Source of the DNA: an uncultured Ruminococcus sp.
GTDB taxonomy: Bacteria > Bacillota > Clostridia > Oscillospirales > Acutalibacteraceae
DNA length: 64,000 nt
Direction: 5' to 3'
Assembly (NCBI GenBank): GCA_902773635.1
Contig: CACYFH010000004.1
Location: 55,050 to 119,049 of the forward strand
Under the pieces are notes generated by a model. The model was not told where the DNA came from. It did no database searches and saw nothing but the letters and a program-made list of their open reading frames with translations. A program made the translations under genes and the position numbers. Below, in pieces: positions 11,541 to 60,343 of this stretch (its first letter is position 1; every line of letters begins with the position of its first letter).

Positions 11541-11688
11541 TGAGGAATTAGGAATTAGGAATGAGGAATTGACATTTTACTAAGCCGCAATGTCATTCCG
11601 AAGAGGACTGAATAATCCGACATGGGAATCCCACAAACAGAGATCGGGCTTTTCCGATGAATCATCCATTCCTAATTCCTCATTCAAG
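11541..11688. repeat. Heptad-armed repeat with CATTCCGA core
   Basis: Left arm of TGAGGAATTAGGAATTAGGA type (11541-11570), core GTCATTCCGAAGAGG...GGGAATCCCAC and CGGGCTTTTCCGATG, right arm CATTCCTAATTCCTCATTC ending at the spoIIAA ribosome site. Confidence 0.72.
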
Positions 11689-11703
11689 AAAGGAGTTCTT
11701 CAA

Positions 11704-12006
11704 ATGGTCGACATCAATTTTCAAAACGGTACGGTCACGGCGCGGCTCAGCGGCGAGATCGACCACCATATCGCGCCCCAGCTTCGCGGTCAGATCGACG
11801 CGCGGTGCGAGAGTCTGCGACCCGCGCGGCTGGTGCTGGACTTCGGGCGCGTCGGGTTCATGGACTCGTCCGGCATCGGACTGGTCATGGGGCGCTACCG
11901 CATGATCTCCCTGCTCGGCGGGCGGCTGGAGGTCGTGAATATCCCCGAAAATCTCAGAAAGATCTTCGTCCTGTCGGGACTGGAAAAACTGGGGGTGATG
12001 AAATGA
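11704..12006 (+). CDS. spoIIAA: Anti-sigma-F factor antagonist SpoIIAA
   Basis: A STAS-domain protein that releases sigma-F from SpoIIAB in the forespore. The 100 residues include the phosphorylation loop FMDSSGIGLVMGRY; Ser55 aligns with the Ser phosphorylated in Bacillus SpoIIAA. The ATG at 11704 is placed by AAAGGAG eight bases upstream. It forms a tight operon with spoIIAB (stop/start overlap ATGA at 12003) and sigF, the order conserved in endospore formers. Family and order are unambiguous. Confidence 0.96.
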   Translation: MVDINFQNGTVTARLSGEIDHHIAPQLRGQIDARCESLRPARLVLDFGRVGFMDSSGIGLVMGRYRMISLLGGRLEVVNIPENLRKIFVLSGLEKLGVMK

Positions 12007-12455
12007 AAACCGTCAACAGCATGAAGCTGAGCTTCCTCTCCAAGAGCGTGAACGAGAGCTTTGCGCGCGCGGCAGTCGCCGCCTTTCTGCTCCCGCTCGA
12101 CCCGACCGTCGCGGAGCTTGCAGACGTCAAGACAGCCGTAAGCGAAGCCGTCACCAACGCCATCGTCCACGCCTATCCGGAGGGCTACGGAACCGTCTAC
12201 ATAGAGGCCTCCCTCACCGACACGGGCAAGGCGATCATCAAGATTCGCGACAAGGGCGTCGGCATCCCCGACATCGAGCGTGCGATGGAGCCGCTCTACA
12301 CCACCTCGTCGGACGAACGCGCGGGGCTGGGCTTCGCCGTCATGCAGAGCTTCACGGACAGGGTGCGGGTGCGCTCGACCGTCGGCAAGGGCACGACCGT
12401 CACGCTTGAGAAAAACATCCTGCGCGCTTCCTATGGACAGAAACGCGCTGATTGA
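12003..12455 (+). CDS. spoIIAB: Anti-sigma-F factor / serine kinase SpoIIAB
   Basis: A GHKL-fold protein kinase that holds sigma-F inactive and phosphorylates SpoIIAA. The ATP-binding boxes are intact: N-box VSEAVTNAIVHAY (about residues 44-56), G1 RDKGVGIPD and G2 ERAGLGFAVMQSF, ending with GKGTTVTL. It is 150 residues long, near family length. The start overlaps the spoIIAA stop by four bases, implying translational coupling, and its 3' end overlaps sigF by 23 bases. It is a useful intact reference for judging the degenerate GHKL domains at 51.1 and 55.4 kb. Confidence 0.96.
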   Translation: MKTVNSMKLSFLSKSVNESFARAAVAAFLLPLDPTVAELADVKTAVSEAVTNAIVHAYPEGYGTVYIEASLTDTGKAIIKIRDKGVGIPDIERAMEPLYTTSSDERAGLGFAVMQSFTDRVRVRSTVGKGTTVTLEKNILRASYGQKRAD

Positions 12456-13077
12456 ACAGAACCTGCGGCTCGTCCACGCCTGCGCCCGCCGCTTCAAGGG
12501 CAAGGGGATCGAGTACGACGACCTCTACTCCGCGGGCTGTCTCGGTCTGACAAAGGCGGCGGATCGCTTTGATGAAAGCCGCGGCTTTCGCTTCTCGACC
12601 TACGCCGTACCCGTGATCCTCGGCGAGATCCGCGCCCTCTTCCGCTCCGGCGGGACGGTCAAGCTCTCGCGCTCCCTGCAGGAGCTGAGCATGCGGGCAA
12701 GAGAGCTGAGCGACCGCTACCGCGCCGACAATCAGGAGGAAATGACCGTCAATGCGCTTGCCGAAGCGCTCGGCGTGGACGTCTACCAAGCGGCGCTGGC
12801 GCTCTCCGCGTCACGACCCACCCTCTCCCTCTCGGGTGAGGACGAAGAGGGCGGCGTGGATATCCCCGTCCCATCCGTAGAGGAAACCCTGACGGACAGG
12901 CTCTCGCTCCGCGAGGCGCTCGAAACGCTCAGCGACGAGGACAGAGAGCTGATCGAGCTGCGCTACTTCTCCCGCAAGAGCCAGACCGCAACCGCCGCCC
13001 GGCTCGGCACCACCCAGGTGCAGGTCAGCCGCAGAGAAAAGAAGATCCTCCTCAAAATGCGGAGTATGCTGGTATGA
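12433..13077 (+). CDS. sigF: Sporulation sigma factor F
   Basis: The first forespore-specific sigma factor. The 214 residues contain region 2 (IEYDDLYSAGCLGLTKAADRF), RFSTYAVPVILGEIR for promoter melting, a region-3 segment (TVKLSRSLQELS) and region 4 with the helix-turn-helix TATAARLGTTQVQVSRREKK. It is some 40 residues shorter at the N-terminus than Bacillus SigF, starting directly at NALIEQNLRLV. The ATG at 12433 lies inside the end of spoIIAB, so translation is probably coupled. SigF rather than SigG is supported by the spoIIAA-spoIIAB context. A terminator follows at 13150. Confidence 0.95.
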   Translation: MDRNALIEQNLRLVHACARRFKGKGIEYDDLYSAGCLGLTKAADRFDESRGFRFSTYAVPVILGEIRALFRSGGTVKLSRSLQELSMRARELSDRYRADNQEEMTVNALAEALGVDVYQAALALSASRPTLSLSGEDEEGGVDIPVPSVEETLTDRLSLREALETLSDEDRELIELRYFSRKSQTATAARLGTTQVQVSRREKKILLKMRSMLV

Positions 13078-49749: not shown

Positions 49750-51492
49750 ATGCAAATATCCCAAAAAAGGCATCATAAGCTGATGTCAAAAAAATATTTC
49801 TCTATGCTGCTGGGCGGAACGCTGACCATGATGGTGGCGTCCGTGATGCTGATGTCCGATTCCGTCATCGCCGGCGCTGTTATCGGGTCCGATGCAGTAG
49901 CAGGTATCACGCTGGTGACGCCGCTTTACTCCCTCGCGGTGTTCTTCGGCTCTGTCATCTCCATCGGTATTCCTGTACTGTACGCGACAGAGATGGGAAG
50001 ATTCAACAAGAAGAGGGCGGATCAGGCGTTTGGCTCCGGTGTGCTGATGTCCATTGTTGTGGGCGTTATCCTGTTTCTTTTGATCATCCTGTTCGGAGAA
50101 CTCTATCTGAACAGCTATTCCCCTGAAAAAGAGGTTCTGAATGAGGCTCGGGAATACCTGTTCTGGATGGCGTATGTGATTCTGACTATGCCGATACAAA
50201 TGCTCATTGCCAATATGGTCTACAGCGACGGCGACGAAACGATATCCACCATCGCTAACGTGGTGCAGGGCATAGGCAATATCGCACTCTCCATTATACT
50301 TTGCCCCGCGATGGGTACCCGAGGAATCGGTCTGGCTTCCTTCATCTTCAATATTGTCTCTATCCTGATCCTGTTGGCTCATTTTGCGAAAAAGAGCAAT
50401 TCCCTTCGCTGGAATCTGTATTTTTCCTTCTCGATGATGAAGGATGTTCTGCGTTACAGCATCATCGACTCCAGCTCCTATCTTTTTCTCGCTGTTTTTA
50501 CTGCTGCACTCAACGCTTTTATCAGCGCTCAGTTTGGACCGGAGTATCTGATTCTTGCCTCAGCAGTTACACTGTGCAGGGAGTTCCAGCTGATCTTTGA
50601 CGGAATCGGCGTGGCGGTCGGTCCCATCTTCGGCGTCTATGTTGGGGAACAGAATCACACCGGCCTGCGCTCCAGCTTCTCCTTGGCTAATAAAACAGCC
50701 ATTGTCGAAGGTGTTGTAGTCACTTTGGCTCTGGTGATCATTGCACCGTTTGCCCCTCAGATCCTGAATGTAGATGATCCTCAGCTCGCGAGCTATGTCG
50801 TGACAGGCGTCCGCCTGAGCGCGCTGGGCTCTACCTTTATCAGTGTTCTGTATCTTCTCACCTCTTACTATCTGGTGATCGAAAAAATCACGCTGGGCGT
50901 GATCGTATGCGCCCTTCGTGACGTTATTCTGAGTGTTGCCCTTGCCGTGGCTTTTGGCAAAGTATTCGGAATCATCGGAATATATATCGGAATTGCCGCA
51001 GCGCCCGCCATTGCCTATGTGTTATTGATGCTTTATCTCGTCATACGCTATGGCAAAAAAGACTGTCCGCTGCTTCTCAGTGAGGTTCCGGGCGGGAAAA
51101 ATTGCTTTTTGTTTAATCTGTCCACCGAACCGGCGGAAATCATCGACACGCAAAGGAAGGTCGAGGCTCTCCTGAAGGAACACAATGCGGATCAGCAGAC
51201 CGTCGGTTATGCGATGCTGCTGATCGAAGAGATGTATACGATCATCCGCCAGAAGAATGACAACAAAGCCGTTCTCGCTGAATGTACGGTGATCCTGCAT
51301 CCTGACGGCGTACAGATCATCTCAAAAGACGACGGCGTGTCCTTCGATATGACGGACGATGACGTCATCACAACATCTCTTGCCGGATATACTCTATCGG
51401 CGTTTCTGGAACAGAAGGATTACGGCAACCGTCACCTGACCGCAATGAGTTTTAACCGCAGCTCGTTATTTGTCAAGTTCCCTCAGGACTAA
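49750..51492 (+). CDS. MATE-family transporter with a degenerate GHKL (RsbW-like) C-terminal domain, copy 1
   Basis: 580 residues. About 1-435 form a 12-helix MATE efflux unit (YFSMLLGGTLTMMVASVMLM, SDGDETISTIANVVQGIGNI). Residues ~437-580 are cytoplasmic and resemble a histidine-kinase-like ATPase of the RsbW/SpoIIAB type: VGYAMLLIEEMYTIIRQKN at the N-box, IISKDDGVSFDMTD at G1. The N-box Asn that coordinates Mg is replaced by Ile and the G2 glycine loop is missing, so ATP binding is doubtful. The tail could dock STAS or phosphatase proteins encoded next door. The ATG at 49750 follows AAGGAAG. A second copy lies at 54,060. Confidence 0.82.
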   Translation: MQISQKRHHKLMSKKYFSMLLGGTLTMMVASVMLMSDSVIAGAVIGSDAVAGITLVTPLYSLAVFFGSVISIGIPVLYATEMGRFNKKRADQAFGSGVLMSIVVGVILFLLIILFGELYLNSYSPEKEVLNEAREYLFWMAYVILTMPIQMLIANMVYSDGDETISTIANVVQGIGNIALSIILCPAMGTRGIGLASFIFNIVSILILLAHFAKKSNSLRWNLYFSFSMMKDVLRYSIIDSSSYLFLAVFTAALNAFISAQFGPEYLILASAVTLCREFQLIFDGIGVAVGPIFGVYVGEQNHTGLRSSFSLANKTAIVEGVVVTLALVIIAPFAPQILNVDDPQLASYVVTGVRLSALGSTFISVLYLLTSYYLVIEKITLGVIVCALRDVILSVALAVAFGKVFGIIGIYIGIAAAPAIAYVLLMLYLVIRYGKKDCPLLLSEVPGGKNCFLFNLSTEPAEIIDTQRKVEALLKEHNADQQTVGYAMLLIEEMYTIIRQKNDNKAVLAECTVILHPDGVQIISKDDGVSFDMTDDDVITTSLAGYTLSAFLEQKDYGNRHLTAMSFNRSSLFVKFPQD

Positions 51493-51630
51493 ATGAATAT
51501 AGAACAAACCAGAAAAAGGATCAAGTCTTAATTCATTATTGATTCATATTTTATCAAGTGTTTTAGAAAGTAATCTTTGTGCCTGAGCCACAGGCGCATG
51601 AAATAATTATACTATCAGGAGGATACAAAC

Positions 51631-51987
51631 ATGGCACTTTTCGGCAACAAAAATAAGGATACGAAATCGAGCGCGGGCGGCGGCAGCCATTTGAAGATAT
51701 CGGTATCTAACAACGGATCGGAATACACCTTCACGCTCGACGGCAGATTGGACACGATCACCTCTCCCGACCTTGAAGCAAAGATCAATGAAGTCGTCGG
51801 CGGCGCAAGCAAGCTGACCCTCGATCTCGGAAGTTTAGAATATATCTCCAGCGCGGGACTGCGCGTCCTGCTCGGTGCGGCACAGGCGATGGACGGCAAG
51901 GGTGATATGGTCGTGTGCAATCTCACTCAGTCTGTTATGGAAGTTTTCGAACTTACCGGCTTCAGCCGTATGTTCAACATCGAATAA
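51631..51987 (+). CDS. STAS-domain anti-sigma factor antagonist
   Basis: A 118-residue RsbV/SpoIIAA-like protein. After a Lys/Gly-rich 20-residue lead it has the STAS fold with FTLDGRLDTITSPDLEAKIN and the phosphorylation loop YISSAGLRVLLGAAQAM; Ser74 aligns with the Ser phosphorylated in SpoIIAA. The ATG follows AGGAGGATACAAAC. It lies directly before a SpoIIE-type phosphatase and an RsbW-like protein, giving antagonist, phosphatase and kinase in one operon. It is distinct from the SpoIIAA at 11.7 kb. Confidence 0.93.
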   Translation: MALFGNKNKDTKSSAGGGSHLKISVSNNGSEYTFTLDGRLDTITSPDLEAKINEVVGGASKLTLDLGSLEYISSAGLRVLLGAAQAMDGKGDMVVCNLTQSVMEVFELTGFSRMFNIE

Positions 51988-52080
51988 TATAAGAAGCACA
52001 TCCTCATCCGGCAGGGACCGCTGTACGGCGATGTCCCTGCCGTACTTGACGGTGAGGAACTGATTCAACGGAGAGAACAT

Positions 52081-53601
52081 ATGATGAATAAATTGAAAGA
52101 CATCAAGATATACGGGTTGATTTTTACCATTGCGGCGACCCTTGCTGTCATAGCGCTCAGCACCCCCTTCTTCATCGAAGAAAGACTGCAGCCGTATCTT
52201 TATAATGCAGGCATTGATTCGATAGGATCGCTGATCTGCGCGGCACTGTTTTACGGATGTATGAGGCAGGACGGGAGCGGGATCAAGTTCTTCAGGAGTC
52301 TTATCATTCTGGTATGCGCCAGCTTTGTCATCAACGAAGTGACCTGTTATTCGGCTTTCGTGCCCGAGATGAGGATACTCTGCTTCGTTTTCTGTATGCT
52401 GAGCAAGCTGACAGACCTTGCGATGATCTACCTCTTCTATCTGTACGTCAGAGAAACGCTCGGCTTTGAGGGAAAACTCGCAAAGATTGCAAAAATACTC
52501 ATCCCTGTTACGCTGATCGTTCAAGCGTTATTTTTGCTTGCCAACATTATCACACCCGTAACCTTTACTGTTGACGCTGCGGGTGTATATCAGAGTACAG
52601 ATATCAGTTTGACCGAAGATATCGCTCTTATTGTGACGTCCGTTCTGACAACTGTCATGATATTTATGTCTCACAACCCTTTCAGCCAGAAAGCGGCTGC
52701 TTTGACATTTATCTTCTTACCGCTTATCGAATACGTGATCATTGAAGCAAGCTTCGGCGAAGCCTCCCAGTACGGCATCATTCTGATGTCGCTGATCATC
52801 ATGTACTGCGTGATATCCAACGTCAAGAGCAGGAAGCTCGCGGTGACGGAGACAGAGCTCAATATGGCTACCGAGATCCAGACCGGCAGTCTGCCTACTG
52901 TCTTTCCGGATCGCCCGGAGTTTGATATCTACGCTTCCATGGATCCGGCGAAGGAGGTCGGCGGAGATTTCTATGATTTCTTCATGATCGACGACGATCA
53001 TCTTGCGATCGTGATCGCGGACGTATCCGGAAAGGGTGTTCCTGCGGCGTTGTTCATGATGTCGTCAAAGATCTATATCAACGACCACGCCACGATCGGA
53101 GGCTCTCCCGCGGAGATACTGGGGAGAGTCAACAAGCTGGTCTGCGCGAATAACAATGCGCATATGTTCGTGACGGTTTGGCTGGGCATTCTCGAGATCA
53201 GCACCGGCAAGCTCACCTCCGCGAGCGCCGGTCACGAATATCCGATGATCAACGTCAACGGCAAATACGAGATCCTGAAGGACAAGCACGGTCTGGCGAT
53301 CGGCGCGATGGATATTGCCAAGTATGTAAACACCGAGATACAGCTCAAGAAGGGCGACAGTATTTTTGTCTACACCGACGGCGTTGCTGAGGCGACAGAC
53401 GCAAACAATGAGCTCTTCGGTACAGAACGCACCGTAGACGCCCTCAACGCGATCCCTAAGAGTGCTACTCAGAAGGAGGTACTGGCGGGTGTGCGCGCCG
53501 CTGTCGACGCTTTTGTCAAAGAAGCGCCTCAGTTTGACGATCTGACGATGGTCGGATTAAAGTACAACGGTCCTCAGGGAAATACCCAAACGGAGGAATG
53601 A
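52081..53601 (+). CDS. Membrane SpoIIE/RsbU-type PP2C phosphatase
   Basis: 506 residues. The first ~250 form about eight transmembrane helices (YGLIFTIAATLAVIALSTPF, LICAALFYGCM and so on), a probable sensor; a linker, KLAVTETELNMATEIQTGSL, leads to a PP2C domain from about residue 283 with AKEVGGDFYDFF, VIADVSGKGVPAALFM, SAGHEYPM, VYTDGVAEATDANNELFG and QFDDLTMVGL. Metal-binding aspartates are all present. It should dephosphorylate the STAS protein when its membrane part senses a signal. The STAS gene lies 90 bases upstream and the RsbW-like gene starts at its stop codon. Confidence 0.93.
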   Translation: MMNKLKDIKIYGLIFTIAATLAVIALSTPFFIEERLQPYLYNAGIDSIGSLICAALFYGCMRQDGSGIKFFRSLIILVCASFVINEVTCYSAFVPEMRILCFVFCMLSKLTDLAMIYLFYLYVRETLGFEGKLAKIAKILIPVTLIVQALFLLANIITPVTFTVDAAGVYQSTDISLTEDIALIVTSVLTTVMIFMSHNPFSQKAAALTFIFLPLIEYVIIEASFGEASQYGIILMSLIIMYCVISNVKSRKLAVTETELNMATEIQTGSLPTVFPDRPEFDIYASMDPAKEVGGDFYDFFMIDDDHLAIVIADVSGKGVPAALFMMSSKIYINDHATIGGSPAEILGRVNKLVCANNNAHMFVTVWLGILEISTGKLTSASAGHEYPMINVNGKYEILKDKHGLAIGAMDIAKYVNTEIQLKKGDSIFVYTDGVAEATDANNELFGTERTVDALNAIPKSATQKEVLAGVRAAVDAFVKEAPQFDDLTMVGLKYNGPQGNTQTEE

Positions 53602-53603
53602 TC

Positions 53604-54029
53604 ATGAAAGAACTAATCGTCGAAGCCAAAAGAGAAAATCTGTTGGAGGTTCAGTCGTTCATCGATGAGCAGTTGGAAGAGGTCGGCTGTCCGATGACGA
53701 CCCAGATAGCGATCGACGTCGCTGTTGAGGAGCTGTTCGTCAACATTGCCAGCTATGCTTACGGTAAGGGAGAAGGCATCGCGGTGGTTCAAGTTACCGT
53801 GCATGAGGATCCGCTTTCTGTCGAGATCACCTTTATTGACAGCGGAAGGCAGTACGATCCTCTCGCAAAGGAAGACCCCGACGTTACCCTCTCTGCCAAA
53901 GAGCGCAAAAAGGGCGGCCTCGGCATCTTTATGGTCAAAAACACCATGGACAATGTGAGCTATGAATACAAGGACGGGAAGAATATCCTGACCATCAAGA
54001 AGAATTTGAACAGAACCATTATTGAATAA
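53604..54029 (+). CDS. RsbW-like anti-sigma regulatory kinase (GHKL)
   Basis: A 141-residue soluble GHKL protein with intact boxes: N-box DVAVEELFVNIASYAYGKG, G1 ITFIDSGRQYDPLAKEDP and G2 KKGGLGIFMVKNTMDNVSYE. It should phosphorylate the STAS protein and bind a partner. The ATG at 53604 (MKELIVEAKREN) is seven bases after GGAGG; an ATG at 53598 is too close. No sigma factor gene accompanies it, so its target is unknown; the GHKL-tailed transporters on both sides are candidates. Confidence 0.92.
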   Translation: MKELIVEAKRENLLEVQSFIDEQLEEVGCPMTTQIAIDVAVEELFVNIASYAYGKGEGIAVVQVTVHEDPLSVEITFIDSGRQYDPLAKEDPDVTLSAKERKKGGLGIFMVKNTMDNVSYEYKDGKNILTIKKNLNRTIIE

Positions 54030-54059
54030 ATCAGTTTGTTTACTTCAGAGGCAATTATT

Positions 54060-55772
54060 ATGAAAGGTTTTTGCGAAAAGAAATTCACTTCTATGCTTAT
54101 ATCCGGCACCTTCACCAAGGCGGTGATGTATCTGATGCTGCTCAGCGACAGCATCATTGCCGGATTCTTTATTGGAAAATCAGGCGTTGCCGGTATCAAC
54201 GCGATCACACCGCTGACCGCTGTCGTCACCTTCTTCGGTGATCTGGTTTCGACAGGCGTCGGAATCGTTTTCACACGCGAGGTCGGTGCGATGAGAAAGC
54301 GCCGGGCAGACGAGATCTACGGACAGGGACTCATCATCAGCATCGGGATCGGACTGATCTCCGCGCTTTTGATACTCGTGTTCCAAAACGCGTATTTCAG
54401 TATCAGCGGCGTCACGGGAGATATCCTGGACAAAGCGCAGGAATATTACCGTTTTCTCCCGATCAACGCGTTTTTGACTATCGTTATCTTCTATCTTGAA
54501 CAGATGGTCTACAGCGACGGAGACGAGCTGTGCAATAATATCTGTTACGGCTTCCAGATCGGCGGCAATATCATCTGCTCCATCATACTGACAAACTTCC
54601 TTGGAATGACAGGTATCATCTTAGGCTCTGTGATAGGTAACAGTCTCGGTATCCTTACCTGCTTGTGGCACTTTTTCAGAAAGAAAAACACGCTGCATTT
54701 TGTATGGCATCTGTCCTTTAAGGACTTTTTGCTGACGTCGAGATACAGCATCGTTGATTCTTCTGTTTATATCTGCTGGGGTCTGATGGACTTTGTCATG
54801 ATAGGATTTGTATCCCGTCACTACGGTGAGCCCGGTCTGATCACGCTTGCCGTGGTCGTCAGTCTGATCGAGTTCGGAGTTGTGATGGACGGCGTCGGAA
54901 TGGCGATGCAGCCCCTGATCGGGACCTACTTCGGAGAAAAGAATCACAAACTTATCAAAAGGGTCATGAGATCCGGCATCAAGGCCGCGATCATAGAAGG
55001 CGCGGCTGCAACTGTTTTGATTTGGATATTCGCGAAACAGTTCTGCGGTCTGTTCGGCGTGACCGACGAAGCAGCGCTCGCTTCGGCAATACCCGCCATC
55101 CGGATCGTATCGCTCGGATTCATATTCTGCAGTACGGTGTCGCTCACGACCTCTTACTATATGCTGATCGACCGTATCGGTATGGCGACATGCGTCGCGT
55201 GCTTCCAGAACGGTTTACTGTACATTCTCTTACCAATAGCGGGTTCTCTTCTTTTCGGGATATATGGTATGTGGGCAGGCTTTGTTGTCGCTCCGATCCT
55301 GACGTTGATCTGCGCCATGCTCTTTGTGTATCTGAAATTCGGCAAGGATAACTTCCCGTTTTTGCTCAAAGATATGGACGCGGAGATTCTCGTTATGGAA
55401 GATACCCTTACTCCCGAATCCGCAGCTTCGCTCTCCGTACAAGTCAAAAACAGTTTGCAATCACATCAATATTCGATTGAGACAGCCAACAGCGCGGCTC
55501 TGTTTACGGAAGAGATCGGTCTGACGATCCTCGAAAGCAATCGGCCGTCAAAGAAATCGATATTGATAGAGCTTTCGCTTTTCTTTGAAGATGATCATGT
55601 TCTTATCATAGAACGTGATTCGGGAAAATTATTTGATCTGACCGACCCGGACGCTGAGATTAAGGGACTGAGCGGATTCACACTCAGCGGTCTGATGAAA
55701 GCGCATAATGAAAAGGCATATCTCGTGACCACGGGTTATAACCGGAATATGATGCGCTTTTCCCGCGCTTAA
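54060..55772 (+). CDS. MATE-family transporter with a degenerate GHKL C-terminal domain, copy 2
   Basis: A 570-residue paralogue of the 49,750 gene. Residues 1 to ~425 are the MATE unit (FTKAVMYLMLLSDSIIAGFF, YSDGDELCNNICYGFQIGGN). Residues ~430-570 hold the degenerate GHKL tail: SAALFTEEIGLTILESNRP at the N-box, with Thr in place of Asn, IIERDSGKLFDLTD at G1, and no G2 glycine loop. The tail pattern, including a final FTLSGLM segment, matches copy 1. The ATG at 54060 follows CAGAGG. Its nearest neighbours are the RsbW-like gene upstream and the HAD gene downstream. Confidence 0.82.
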   Translation: MKGFCEKKFTSMLISGTFTKAVMYLMLLSDSIIAGFFIGKSGVAGINAITPLTAVVTFFGDLVSTGVGIVFTREVGAMRKRRADEIYGQGLIISIGIGLISALLILVFQNAYFSISGVTGDILDKAQEYYRFLPINAFLTIVIFYLEQMVYSDGDELCNNICYGFQIGGNIICSIILTNFLGMTGIILGSVIGNSLGILTCLWHFFRKKNTLHFVWHLSFKDFLLTSRYSIVDSSVYICWGLMDFVMIGFVSRHYGEPGLITLAVVVSLIEFGVVMDGVGMAMQPLIGTYFGEKNHKLIKRVMRSGIKAAIIEGAAATVLIWIFAKQFCGLFGVTDEAALASAIPAIRIVSLGFIFCSTVSLTTSYYMLIDRIGMATCVACFQNGLLYILLPIAGSLLFGIYGMWAGFVVAPILTLICAMLFVYLKFGKDNFPFLLKDMDAEILVMEDTLTPESAASLSVQVKNSLQSHQYSIETANSAALFTEEIGLTILESNRPSKKSILIELSLFFEDDHVLIIERDSGKLFDLTDPDAEIKGLSGFTLSGLMKAHNEKAYLVTTGYNRNMMRFSRA

Positions 55773-55795
55773 GAAGGAACAGGAGAGAGAATAAA

Positions 55796-56428
55796 ATGAA
55801 TGTTTATGATTTTGACGGAACGATTTTTCCTACGGATTGTTCGATCGGCTTTTGCTTCTGGTGCATGAAGCGGCGTCCTAAGATGTGGTTCACCTTTGCT
55901 CCGAAAGCGATCAAGAATATCATCCTGCGTAAGACAGGAAGAATACCGGAGTATAAAATGCAGCGTGAGTTTTTCGGCTATCTGACGATGGTAGATAACT
56001 TTGACGAAGAGATCGAGCGTTACTGGAATAAAAACGAAAAGAAGATCGCCCCCTGGTATCTCGCGCAAAAAAGGCCTGATGATCTGATCATCAGCGCGTC
56101 GCCCGACTGCATCATCGGCCCGATCGCGAAGAGGCTCGGAGTGAACTTCATGGCGACGGAATTCAACCGTAAATACGGAGTGTTCCTCAATAATCTGATG
56201 TACGCGCAGGAAAAGGCGCAGTACATGATCGACCACGGCTTTCCGATGATCGAGAATTTCTACTCCGACTCTCTGGCTGATACGCCGCTTGCCCTGTGCG
56301 CCGAAAAAGCGCACTTAGTTAAGGACAAAGCCAGCACCGTTGTCGACTGGCCCGATTTGGATGAAGAGACGCTGAAAATCGTCCACGAGAAAGTCGATAC
56401 CGGATGGAGCGTCCATCTGGATGAATAA
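55796..56428 (+). CDS. HAD-IB family phosphatase
   Basis: A 210-residue haloacid-dehalogenase-fold phosphatase. Motif I DFDGTI at residues 5-10 (nucleophile Asp5), motif II LIISASPDC and a motif-III/IV region FYSDSLADTPLALCAEKAHL are present. The 24-base gap to the upstream MATE gene and the GGAGAGAG ribosome site suggest co-transcription. Small HAD-IB proteins act on phosphoserine, sugar phosphates or lipid phosphates; the FGGY kinase downstream points to a sugar phosphate, but this is inference. Confidence 0.85.
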   Translation: MNVYDFDGTIFPTDCSIGFCFWCMKRRPKMWFTFAPKAIKNIILRKTGRIPEYKMQREFFGYLTMVDNFDEEIERYWNKNEKKIAPWYLAQKRPDDLIISASPDCIIGPIAKRLGVNFMATEFNRKYGVFLNNLMYAQEKAQYMIDHGFPMIENFYSDSLADTPLALCAEKAHLVKDKASTVVDWPDLDEETLKIVHEKVDTGWSVHLDE

Positions 56429-56429
56429 G

Positions 56430-57999
56430 AGGCAAAACAAGTGTAAAAACCTGTCTGTTCAATATCGATTCACAAATACATTTGATCGCCGGATCAACTG
56501 CCGAGTACGGACTATACATATCCGATGACGGAGGAGCGGAACAGGACACAGAGGAATGGTGGGCGGCGCTGTGTTCGACTACCCGTGATGTGTTAAAGGA
56601 ATCGGACGTCAAGCCTCAAGAGATAGAAGGAATGGCGTTCTGCTCACAGATGCAGGGATCGGTTTTTGTCGATAAGGACGGAAACGCCCTCAGACGCCCG
56701 ATGAACTATCTCGATCAGAAGGGCTATAAAGAATACAAGGAATGTATGGGCCGCGGCGTCATCAAGGTTTCGGGCTGCAGCCTGTATAAGCTCCTGCGGA
56801 ATCTGCGCGTCAATTATGCCGGTTCCACCAGCGCCAAGGACCCTGTCTGGAAGTACAAGTGGGTGGAAAACAACGAGCCGGATGTATTCAAAAAAATATA
56901 CAAATGGCTGGATATCGGCGACTATCTCACATCCCGCTGTACGGGCAGGATTGTCAGAACTGCCGATACCGCCTTTGCGACCTTTCTTTATGATACGCGA
57001 AAGGGAAAGGAAGGTTGGAACAGAGGTCTGTTGAAGATGTACAAGGTTGATCCCGACCATATGCCGGACATTATCGACTGCACAGATCAGGTCGGCGGAC
57101 TCACCGAAAAAGCGGCTCAGGAGCTTGGACTCGTTGCAGGGATACCGGTCTTCGGCGGCGGAGGCGACACCACCTTCGTCAATATCGGAGCCGGTTGTAC
57201 AACGCCGGGCGACACGCATATCTATGTCGGGACGTCGGGATGGGTATCGATCTTTATGGATCATCAGACCGTCGATATCGACGCCATGATCACCGGCGTT
57301 TTGTCCGCCAAGCACGGTTACTTTAACTATTACGCGGAGCTGGAAACAGCCGGAAAGTGCTTTGAATGGGTCATGGAGCATCTTGCGCTGGATGAGATCG
57401 GCGTATATCTGAATAATACTACAGTTGCGGATGATCTCGAAAGCAAATATACAAGCATTTATGACTATCTTTCCGAAGAGATCAGCAAATCGCCGCCGGG
57501 TGCAAACGGCGTGATCTTCACCCCGTGGCTCCACGGCAACCGCTGTCCGTTTGAGGACTCTAACGCGGGCGGAATGTTCTTTAACATCCGGATCGAGAAC
57601 GGCAAGAGAGATATGATCCGTGCGGTATTGGAGGGCATATGCTATCATCTGCGCTGGCTGCTGGAATGTTCGGAGAAAAAGGTGAAAACGTCCGATACGA
57701 TCCGCTTCGTCGGCGGAGGAGCGTTATCTCCCGTGACCTGCCAAATGTTGGCGGACATCACCGGACGAACCACAGAAACCGTCAATAATACGCAGGAGGT
57801 CGGCGCGATCGGAACGGCGCTTGTTGTCGCTGCAGGCATCAAAGGCGTGGATGTGCTTGAACTATCGCGTCAGTTGGTAAAACCAAATCATGTATATATC
57901 CCCAACTCTGAGAACAAAAAGGTATACGAACGCAATTACAGGGTTTTCAAAAACCTCTACAAATCCAACGCCGCGTATTTCAAACAGTTGAATTCCTGA
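56430..57999 (+). pseudogene. FGGY-family carbohydrate kinase with damaged 5' end
   Basis: About 505 residues are read from a TTG at 56482. The frame is open from the preceding stop at 56422-56424 and already encodes conserved sequence before that TTG (GKTSVKTCLFNID), corresponding to the DxGTSxxK phosphate-binding motif of FGGY kinases but lacking the first ~8 residues, the Asp and any ATG. The remainder is intact: EEWWAALCSTTRDVL, GGGDTTFVNIGAG, YVGTSGWVS, WLHGNRCPFEDSN and RFVGGGALSPVTCQML. A small deletion seems to have fused the HAD stop region to codon ~9, removing the ribosome site. The enzyme is xylulokinase-like; whether it is still made is uncertain. Confidence 0.75.
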
Positions 58000-59578: not shown

Positions 59579-59956
59579 ATGAAAATCACGACATTCAATC
59601 CGCTGATTATTACGAGGGATCCCGACACAGCGATCGAGCTTTTCGAAAAGCTGGGATTCAAACAGCACCATGTAAAACAGAATATCAGCGAAATAAAAAC
59701 CACGGACGTTCGCATGAAGGACGATAACGGCTTTTATGTTGACATTGTGCAAGGTGACGGAGAGTACACGATGATCCGCGTCAATGTGGATGATTTCGAT
59801 GAAGCGATCGAATTCTTCATGTCTCATGGCTTCAGAAAGCCGCACCATGAAAGAGCGCACAAAACCGTTGATACCGGATCTTCCAGATATACCATGGTGG
59901 TTTCACCGTCCGGTTATATACTGGCAGTTTCGCAGCATATCAAAGATAATGATTAA
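59579..59956 (+). CDS. VOC-family (glyoxalase/bleomycin-resistance fold) protein 1
   Basis: A 125-residue protein of the vicinal oxygen chelate superfamily, starting MKITTFNPLIITRDPDTAIE and containing YTMIRVNVDDFDEAIEFFMS and SRYTMVVSPSGYILAVSQ. The first-strand His typical of metal-binding VOC enzymes is replaced (FNP), so it may be non-enzymatic or metal-independent. First of three tandem paralogues with 15-20-base gaps and strong AAAGGAG-type ribosome sites. Confidence 0.85.
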   Translation: MKITTFNPLIITRDPDTAIELFEKLGFKQHHVKQNISEIKTTDVRMKDDNGFYVDIVQGDGEYTMIRVNVDDFDEAIEFFMSHGFRKPHHERAHKTVDTGSSRYTMVVSPSGYILAVSQHIKDND

Positions 59957-59971
59957 AAGAGGAGCATAAAC

Positions 59972-60343
59972 ATGAGAATAACAACATTCAATCCGCAGAT
60001 ATTCACAAAGAACGCCGATCCGATCGTAGACCTGTTTGAGGGATTAGGCTTTCAAAAGCGCCACGACCAAGAGGGGATCGGCGAATTGAATGTGGAAGGC
60101 ATCCGAATGAAGAATGAGGACGGCTTTTATCTGGATATTTCTTGCCCGGATACCAACCTTCCGCGCGATATGGTAGGCATCCGCATGAACGTGGATGACT
60201 TTGACAGCGCGTATCAGCTTCTTCTGGAACACGGTTTCAAAAATGTCTACGGTGAAAAGACCGTTGACACCGCTACCAGCAGATCGGCGGTGCTGATCTC
60301 TTCTTCCGGATTCGGTATCAATCTGATTCAGCACAAAAAATGA
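59972..60343 (+). CDS. VOC-family protein 2
   Basis: A 123-residue paralogue of the flanking genes, with ITTFNPQIFTKNADPIVDLF, GIRMNVDDFDSAYQLLLEHG and SRSAVLISSSGFGINLIQHK. It shares the N-terminal FNP in place of a metal-ligand His. The internal diversity between the three copies (roughly half identical by eye) argues for an old duplication and functional divergence. AGAGGAGC precedes the ATG by about seven bases. Confidence 0.85.
   Translation: MRITTFNPQIFTKNADPIVDLFEGLGFQKRHDQEGIGELNVEGIRMKNEDGFYLDISCPDTNLPRDMVGIRMNVDDFDSAYQLLLEHGFKNVYGEKTVDTATSRSAVLISSSGFGINLIQHKK

Follow-up and report, generated by a model that had tools for sequence, protein, structure and literature searches.

This locus raises the question of what a partner-switching set acts on when it is bracketed by two transporters and no sigma factor gene is seen beside it. 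The set lies at 49750-55772 of the window, i.e., the whole 64,000-nucleotide stretch of DNA from an uncultured Ruminococcus sp. that was analyzed here. According to the list of open reading frames (ORFs), it comprises five closely spaced, co-directional genes on the plus strand: a MATE exporter with a GHKL-like tail (MATE1), a STAS protein, a membrane PP2C phosphatase, an RsbW-like kinase and a second MATE exporter with such a tail (MATE2). We consider it fairly probable that partner switching has the transporter as its output here, the MATE tail being a pseudo-kinase dock for the STAS protein. The genes and their parts are as follows.

49750-51492 (ATG at 49750), plus strand: MATE1, MATE-family exporter with C-terminal GHKL-like tail (MatE, 78.5 bits)
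51082-51489, plus strand: GHKL-like tail of MATE1, a predicted pseudo-kinase
51631-51987, plus strand: STAS protein of the RsbV/SpoIIAA type (STAS, 57.5 bits; TIGR00377, 69.3 bits, over cut-off)
52081-53601, plus strand: PP2C phosphatase of the SpoIIE/RsbU type with a hydrophobic, apparently membrane N-terminal half (PF07228, 152.2 bits)
53598-54029, plus strand: RsbW-like GHKL serine kinase, N-box and GGLG lid intact (PF13581, HATPase_c_2, 82.6 bits; motifs)
54036-55772 (TTG at 54036 or ATG at 54060), plus strand: MATE2, MATE-family exporter with C-terminal GHKL-like tail (MatE, 91.5 bits)
55371-55769, plus strand: GHKL-like tail of MATE2

The three central genes form a module of the RsbV-RsbW-RsbU or SpoIIAA-SpoIIAB-SpoIIE type, with a STAS protein carrying the acceptor serine, an RsbW-type kinase with N-box and glycine lid, and a PP2C (SpoIIE) phosphatase. 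The window set differs from these systems in that no sigma factor is seen with it and that its MATE exporters carry an additional GHKL domain, which lacks the lid. Pfam placed MatE in both MATE proteins, STAS, SpoIIE/PP2C and, in RsbW, HATPase_c_2 over their cut-offs; MatE was found as two stretches in each MATE protein, which are the two repeats of a MATE exporter. Pfam and the ORFs thus agree with the sequence-only reading, which had described an intact STAS/PP2C/RsbW set between two MATE transporters. The PP2C and RsbW ORFs overlap by 4 bases, and the PP2C motifs (DVSGKG, FDDLT) and membrane half were read by eye. The phospho-acceptor context of the STAS protein is YISSAGLR. A serine aligns with the SpoIIAA site, which we take to be the phosphorylation site of that protein, in all 92 STAS stretches compared and in 9 of 9 from distant loci. 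Promoter consensus matches (20 versus 16.4 in shuffles) and terminator-like matches (17 versus 9.5, mostly intragenic) define no transcript.

With 580 and 578 amino acids, the window MATE proteins are ~100-135 residues longer than 26 tail-less relatives (443-480 amino acids). Pfam reported no GHKL family in either protein or tail at E values up to 10. We aligned profiles of related tails (66 in set A3, 22 in set A4) by hhalign to a profile of nine RsbW proteins, which yielded a probability of 95.1% (E 2.9e-8) for the MATE2 set and 96.4% (E 1.3e-9) for the MATE1 set, with nearly the whole domain aligned. AlphaFold2, supplied with alignments of tails only and without free RsbW, modelled the MATE2 and MATE1 tails with a mean predicted local distance difference test score (pLDDT) of 83.4 and 84.6, respectively. 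Both models run strand-helix-helix-strand-strand-helix-strand-strand, MATE1 having one extra short helix. The best Foldseek matches of both in the PDB were RsbW, SpoIIAB and UsfX with a probability of 1.00, led for MATE1 by RsbW (6m37) and SpoIIAB (1l0o, 1til). The 19 top matches of the MATE2 tail are without exception RsbW, SpoIIAB, UsfX or further anti-sigma kinase chains. The same holds for the top 12 of the MATE1 tail, below which come a Leptospira response regulator (9qih) at ranks 13-14 and then more of the anti-sigma type. SiaB is also found among the matches to both tails. Because Foldseek ranks the RsbW, SpoIIAB and UsfX chains above histidine kinases, which come lower in both lists, the tails belong by predicted fold to the anti-sigma-kinase branch of GHKL, and both are modelled with a Bergerat fold. 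Sequence identity to these anti-sigma-kinase matches is 8-16%, and a PDB sequence search with the MATE2 tail profile returned RsbW on top at an E value of only 0.034.

Among relatives, HATPase_c_2 exceeded its Pfam cut-off in the tails of 3 of 5 MATE-GHKL proteins of one set (39.8-45.6 bits) and in 1 of 2 of a second (locus L289, 65.5 bits; L297 stayed below with 21.1 bits). It did so as well (43.3 bits) in a copy on contig C18 of the window's own genome, which holds three MATE-GHKL copies. Because our in-script RsbW profile was iterated and absorbed MATE tails, the scores that it gives to tails are not independent evidence, unlike Pfam, hhalign and the structures. The tails had been called GHKL-like with the segment order kept, and hhalign, the AlphaFold2 models and Foldseek concur, structure prediction of the C-terminal domains having returned an anti-sigma GHKL kinase fold.

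A closer look at the kinase motifs shows how the tails depart from RsbW. Where the N-box of RsbW has EELFVN, MATE1 shows EEMYTI and MATE2 EEIGLT, the N being changed to I and T, respectively. No counterpart of the RsbW glycine lid (GGLG) could be aligned in either window tail. Both points agree with the earlier statement that the N-box asparagine is replaced by Ile or Thr and the G2 glycine loop lost. The N-box glutamate pair, the G1 aspartate and an asparagine of the last strand are kept. Across 70 aligned MATE tails (67 relatives, the two of the window and the C18 copy), 67 retain the N-box Glu, 69 the G1 Asp and 49 the N-box Asn; none has the GG.G lid. The lid is present in 45 of 47 other GHKL rows: all 22 fused domains have it (21 joined to PP2C, one to a STAS-APH protein), as do 23 of the 25 rows called free. 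The two rows without it come from L078, one being a broken MATE2 ortholog and the other an unrelated kinase-like ORF. The distant L289 tail, outside the set of 70, keeps both Asn and GG.G, as descent of the tails from an active kinase would predict. Judged by their motifs, the window tails are pseudo-kinases that keep the predicted anti-sigma-kinase fold with the ATP lid gone. The loss of N-box Asn and lid rules out an active kinase in them.

We then asked how often such fusions stand beside switch genes (STAS, PP2C or RsbW). Relatives were taken from matches to MATE2 in 118 related genomes, the loci being selected by ORF length among the matches listed, and 74 candidate and 26 tail-less MATE loci were fetched. 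Seven candidates without a MATE ORF with a recognized tail were dropped (L078, with a broken gene, L086, L087, L091, L115, L146 and L147). The 67 fusions kept include one 202-residue fragment of a broken gene (L080). The MATE-GHKL genes at 7434-8366 of L078 and 7998-9758 of L080 seem to be broken in the assemblies. A switch gene lies within 3 kb on the same strand of 45 of the 67 MATE-GHKL genes and of 0 of the 26 tail-less ones (Fisher p 3.8e-10, nominal since related genomes are not independent). By type, STAS was found in 37, PP2C in 29 and an RsbW domain, free or fused, in 30 of the 67. Restricted to loci with full 3 kb flanks, the counts are 32/43 versus 0/15. An earlier, looser comparison gave 48/70 versus 2/34, including the window, C18 and, among the 34, some ambiguous genes. 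That MATE genes are generally co-located with switch sets is ruled out by the tail-less controls.

In a phylum-wide draw of 398 genomes, the fusion was found in 9 of the 397 other genomes at the threshold used, with up to seven candidates scored per genome; it thus appears rare across the phylum and commoner near the window. From these nine genomes, 13 loci were fetched, namely every listed match, apart from those of the own genome, that covers both junction and tail within a single frame (one split match, in G496, and incomplete ones such as G481 were left out; G132 and G247 are of one genus). Each of the 13 has a same-strand switch gene within 4 kb, and the fetched stretches hold PP2C in 10, STAS in 8 and RsbW in 3 cases. 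The conserved co-occurrence that the sequence-only reading had proposed to look for is therefore seen both among relatives and at distant loci.

Many fusions also adjoin a nonribosomal peptide synthetase (NRPS). Of the 67 fusion loci, 35 have an NRPS gene on the same strand at a distance of up to 1 kb, and no locus has one on the opposite strand; among the controls the count is 0 of 26. Switch genes within 5 kb accompany 32 of these 35. One representative NRPS that we scanned consists of C-A-T modules and a terminal reductase. The C18 locus holds NRPS, MATE-GHKL, RsbW, CapA-like and STAS genes. Where an NRPS adjoins, which is the case in about half of the relatives' loci, its peptide is likely the cargo. 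In the window, reading the ORFs near the locus by eye revealed no NRPS, which speaks against one as the cargo source there. In five of the 13 distant loci (L291, L292, L296, L297 and L298), an N-terminal STAS is joined to a condensation domain (Pfam-checked in three). This gene overlaps the MATE gene or lies within 24 bases of it in four of the five, an NRPS gene intervening in L291. We know of no description of a STAS-condensation domain fusion, and made no search aimed at that architecture.

The divergence of the parts separates tail from pump. Over 22 non-redundant loci holding both genes, STAS and NRPS, the partial correlation of tail with STAS given the transmembrane (TM) part is 0.63, and that of TM with STAS given the tail is -0.41. 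Conversely, TM correlates with NRPS given the tail (0.56), and tail with NRPS given TM does not (-0.12). The tail-STAS and TM-NRPS terms have a permutation p of 0.001 and leave-one-out ranges of 0.58-0.68 and 0.52-0.77, respectively. In larger sets, the tail-STAS term is 0.35 (33 STAS loci) and the tail-PP2C term 0.26 (27 loci). This pattern is consistent with a tail that cooperates with the switch and a pump that serves the peptide, short of proving contact.

Gene content, predicted fold, kinase-motif loss, recurrent linkage and the correlated divergence of tail and STAS are what the analysis shows. The pump tail suggests itself as an alternative STAS partner because the set has the parts for STAS phospho-cycling, no sigma factor is seen and the pseudo-kinase is the recurrent extra. 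RsbW would phosphorylate the STAS protein at the conserved serine, and the membrane PP2C would strip this phosphate upon a signal. The dephosphorylated STAS protein might then dock on the degenerate GHKL tail of the MATE exporters, and docking would switch export on or off, or assemble the exporter with a supply enzyme. We infer that STAS binds the tail and that phosphorylation governs this binding, and likewise which way gating runs and what the cargo is; the one observation that argues for STAS binding the tail and gating export is that the tail diverges along with STAS rather than with NRPS. More tentatively, and in our view possible rather than probable, there would be a whole class of metabolite systems of anaerobes in which STAS, alone or fused to a condensation domain and released by the PP2C signal, would physically dock a biosynthetic enzyme on the MATE pseudo-RsbW, so that synthesis and export would be switched jointly without transcription.

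Known systems offer partial parallels; our comparisons go by excerpts of the published accounts. SiaABCD of Pseudomonas aeruginosa, which has PP2C and kinase roles, is alike in being a threonine-phosphorylation pathway whose partner output is not a sigma factor, and differs in that this output is a diguanylate cyclase and not a transporter. The STAS protein MlaB binds the transporter ATPase MlaF at its phospho-site face, and a phosphomimetic at that site reduced binding in pull-downs, with a caveat on the Ala mutant there (PMC7367683). MlaB resembles the window protein as a STAS-only protein acting on a transporter; its partner is an ABC ATPase and the excerpt gives no phosphorylation evidence for it, whereas a GHKL dock on a MATE exporter is proposed here. 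A STAS protein on a transporter (MlaB) and a phospho-switched partner on an enzyme (SiaC) each have a precedent. SulP/SLC26 transporters likewise end in a partner-switching domain (PMC8256260), which there is the STAS half; here it is the GHKL half, and STAS is separate. Searches of open PMC papers (subscription papers and preprints being outside the scope) listed none on a MATE-GHKL fusion or on a partner-switched MATE pump.

The two MATE lineages differ in their surroundings. The MATE1 relatives in L190 and L238 (64-65% identity) stand beside PP2C, STAS and RsbW, as do those in G012 and G017, whose tails are 54% identical to that of MATE1; the bracketing with a MATE2 ortholog is seen again in L238, where PP2C and STAS have swapped places. 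For MATE2, a contig search confirmed 146 relatives, many from ruminant samples going by their record titles, and we counted neighbors for the best 80 of these (74-89% identity; 27 with full flanks). Identity over all 80 amounts to 76-92% in the transporter part and 57-81% in the tail. Their steadiest neighbors within 5 kb on the same strand are the counterparts of two genes downstream of MATE2.

55796-56428, plus strand: HAD-IB phosphatase, frequent companion of MATE2 orthologs (PF12710, 40.6 bits)
56482-57999, plus strand: FGGY carbohydrate kinase, xylulokinase-like (TIGR01312, 273 bits, under its cut-off of 380)

HAD accompanies 41/80 orthologs (16/27 with full flanks) and FGGY 33/80 (14/27); in L187 and L247, a STAS gene is located between the two. 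Given these neighborhoods, MATE2 cargo need not be a nonribosomal peptide, and in the window the frequent neighbors point to a compound related to sugar phosphates. The MATE2-HAD-FGGY cassette (window 54036-57999; L176-L255) is strongly conserved in many records of rumen-type Clostridia, and those labelled Spirochaetales or Coriobacteriaceae may be mis-binned or transfers. At 59579-60343, the window encodes two tandem, mutually similar small proteins that look glyoxalase-like by eye; several MATE2 orthologs have BLAST relatives of the first one nearby.

Several observations weigh against an exporter output controlled by STAS. A switch gene lies within 5 kb on the same strand in only 26/80 MATE2 orthologs (9/27 with full flanks); next to the steady HAD and FGGY, this suggests that the genes of the MATE2 switch may often lie elsewhere. 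Around the MATE1-like gene of L219 (43% identical), the 8.4 kb stretch contains no switch gene. Among the 67 fusions, 22 are without a switch gene within 3 or 5 kb (some contigs being short), only 19 have STAS, PP2C and RsbW all within 3 kb, and 8 of the 45 linked ones lack STAS within 3 kb. At the distant loci, 5 of 13 show no STAS gene in the fetched stretch, and in 10 of 13 the MATE tail is its only kinase domain (with flanks of up to 8 kb). Since 49 of the 70 tails keep the N-box Asn and L289 keeps both motifs, not all tails need be inactive. Finally, joint recombination of tail and switch genes could yield correlated divergence without contact.

These observations leave room for other readings. 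The transporter could instead be a sensor, whose tail titrates STAS (or RsbW) by transport flux, the freed partner then acting on the NRPS or on a regulator elsewhere. The linkage and the correlated divergence would look the same, and the STAS-condensation fusions do put STAS on a biosynthetic enzyme; a second sensor is nonetheless unneeded, since both distant PP2Cs that were scanned already have a sensory part (dCache plus HAMP in L290, HAMP in L289). We regard a sensor role as unlikely. It is more doubtful still that the tail pairs with RsbW as a GHKL-GHKL heterodimer and serves as its membrane anchor, with STAS no direct partner. RsbW and SpoIIAB are dimers, and the RsbW domains near 30 of the 67 fusions would suit such pairing, which the 10 distant loci without a further kinase domain do not.

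Similarly improbable to us is ordinary transcriptional control, in which the set acts on a sigma factor encoded elsewhere that regulates the transporter genes, the tail being a relic or having another role. In its favor, sigma control is the textbook use of STAS/PP2C/RsbW sets. The sequence-only reading had noted no sigma factor in the set, and none was found among the ORFs listed at 46-60 kb, part of which were Pfam-scanned. Judged by neighborhood only, a dedicated sigma partner finds little support in the rarity of ECF-like ORFs (1/74 candidate loci, 0/26 controls) and some in the ECF sigma gene that follows STAS in the C18 copy. The only SigF-like ORF near candidates is the window's own, counted twice as L024 overlaps the window. 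It belongs to spoIIAA-spoIIAB-sigF at 11590-13077, ~36 kb away, the genome's sporulation set, which provides sigF (at 12.3 kb) with a separate STAS protein and kinase. A genome-wide census (two PF04539 matches, with the window's own SigF missed and the genome 75% complete) supports no claim. A relic would hardly keep its identity over 80 orthologs or track STAS. Also on the side of transcriptional control, a similar neighborhood has been in print since 2010: in mru0066-mru0071 of Methanobrevibacter ruminantium M1, genes for MatE, two serine phosphatases and an anti-sigma factor antagonist adjoin an NRPS gene, which Leahy et al. read as sensing of the environment with regulation of NRPS expression, and export; the excerpt does not mention a GHKL tail on MatE (PMC2812497). 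Chance or an annotation artefact is ruled out by fold, linkage and controls.

Further fusions were seen beside partner-switching genes. STAS is fused to an APH-like kinase domain at 4945-6162 of L023 (APH by length and eye only), and at 9640-11232 of L094 to an APH-like kinase (by Pfam) and a GHKL domain. A CapA/PGA_cap-like gene lies between kinase and STAS genes in L021 (3536-4726) and L122 (11533-12705), and such ORFs near fusions form a cluster of 7.

Taken together, our analysis suggests that the switch may control small-molecule export directly and, in relatives, perhaps also synthesis. If an exporter output is correct, a logic known mainly from sigma control would act in rumen-type Clostridia, with several copies present in some, as a post-translational valve on small-molecule export. 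It would also offer a handle on the release timing of uncharacterized reductase-terminated NRPS products, and dozens of natural tail/STAS pairs exist for comparison.

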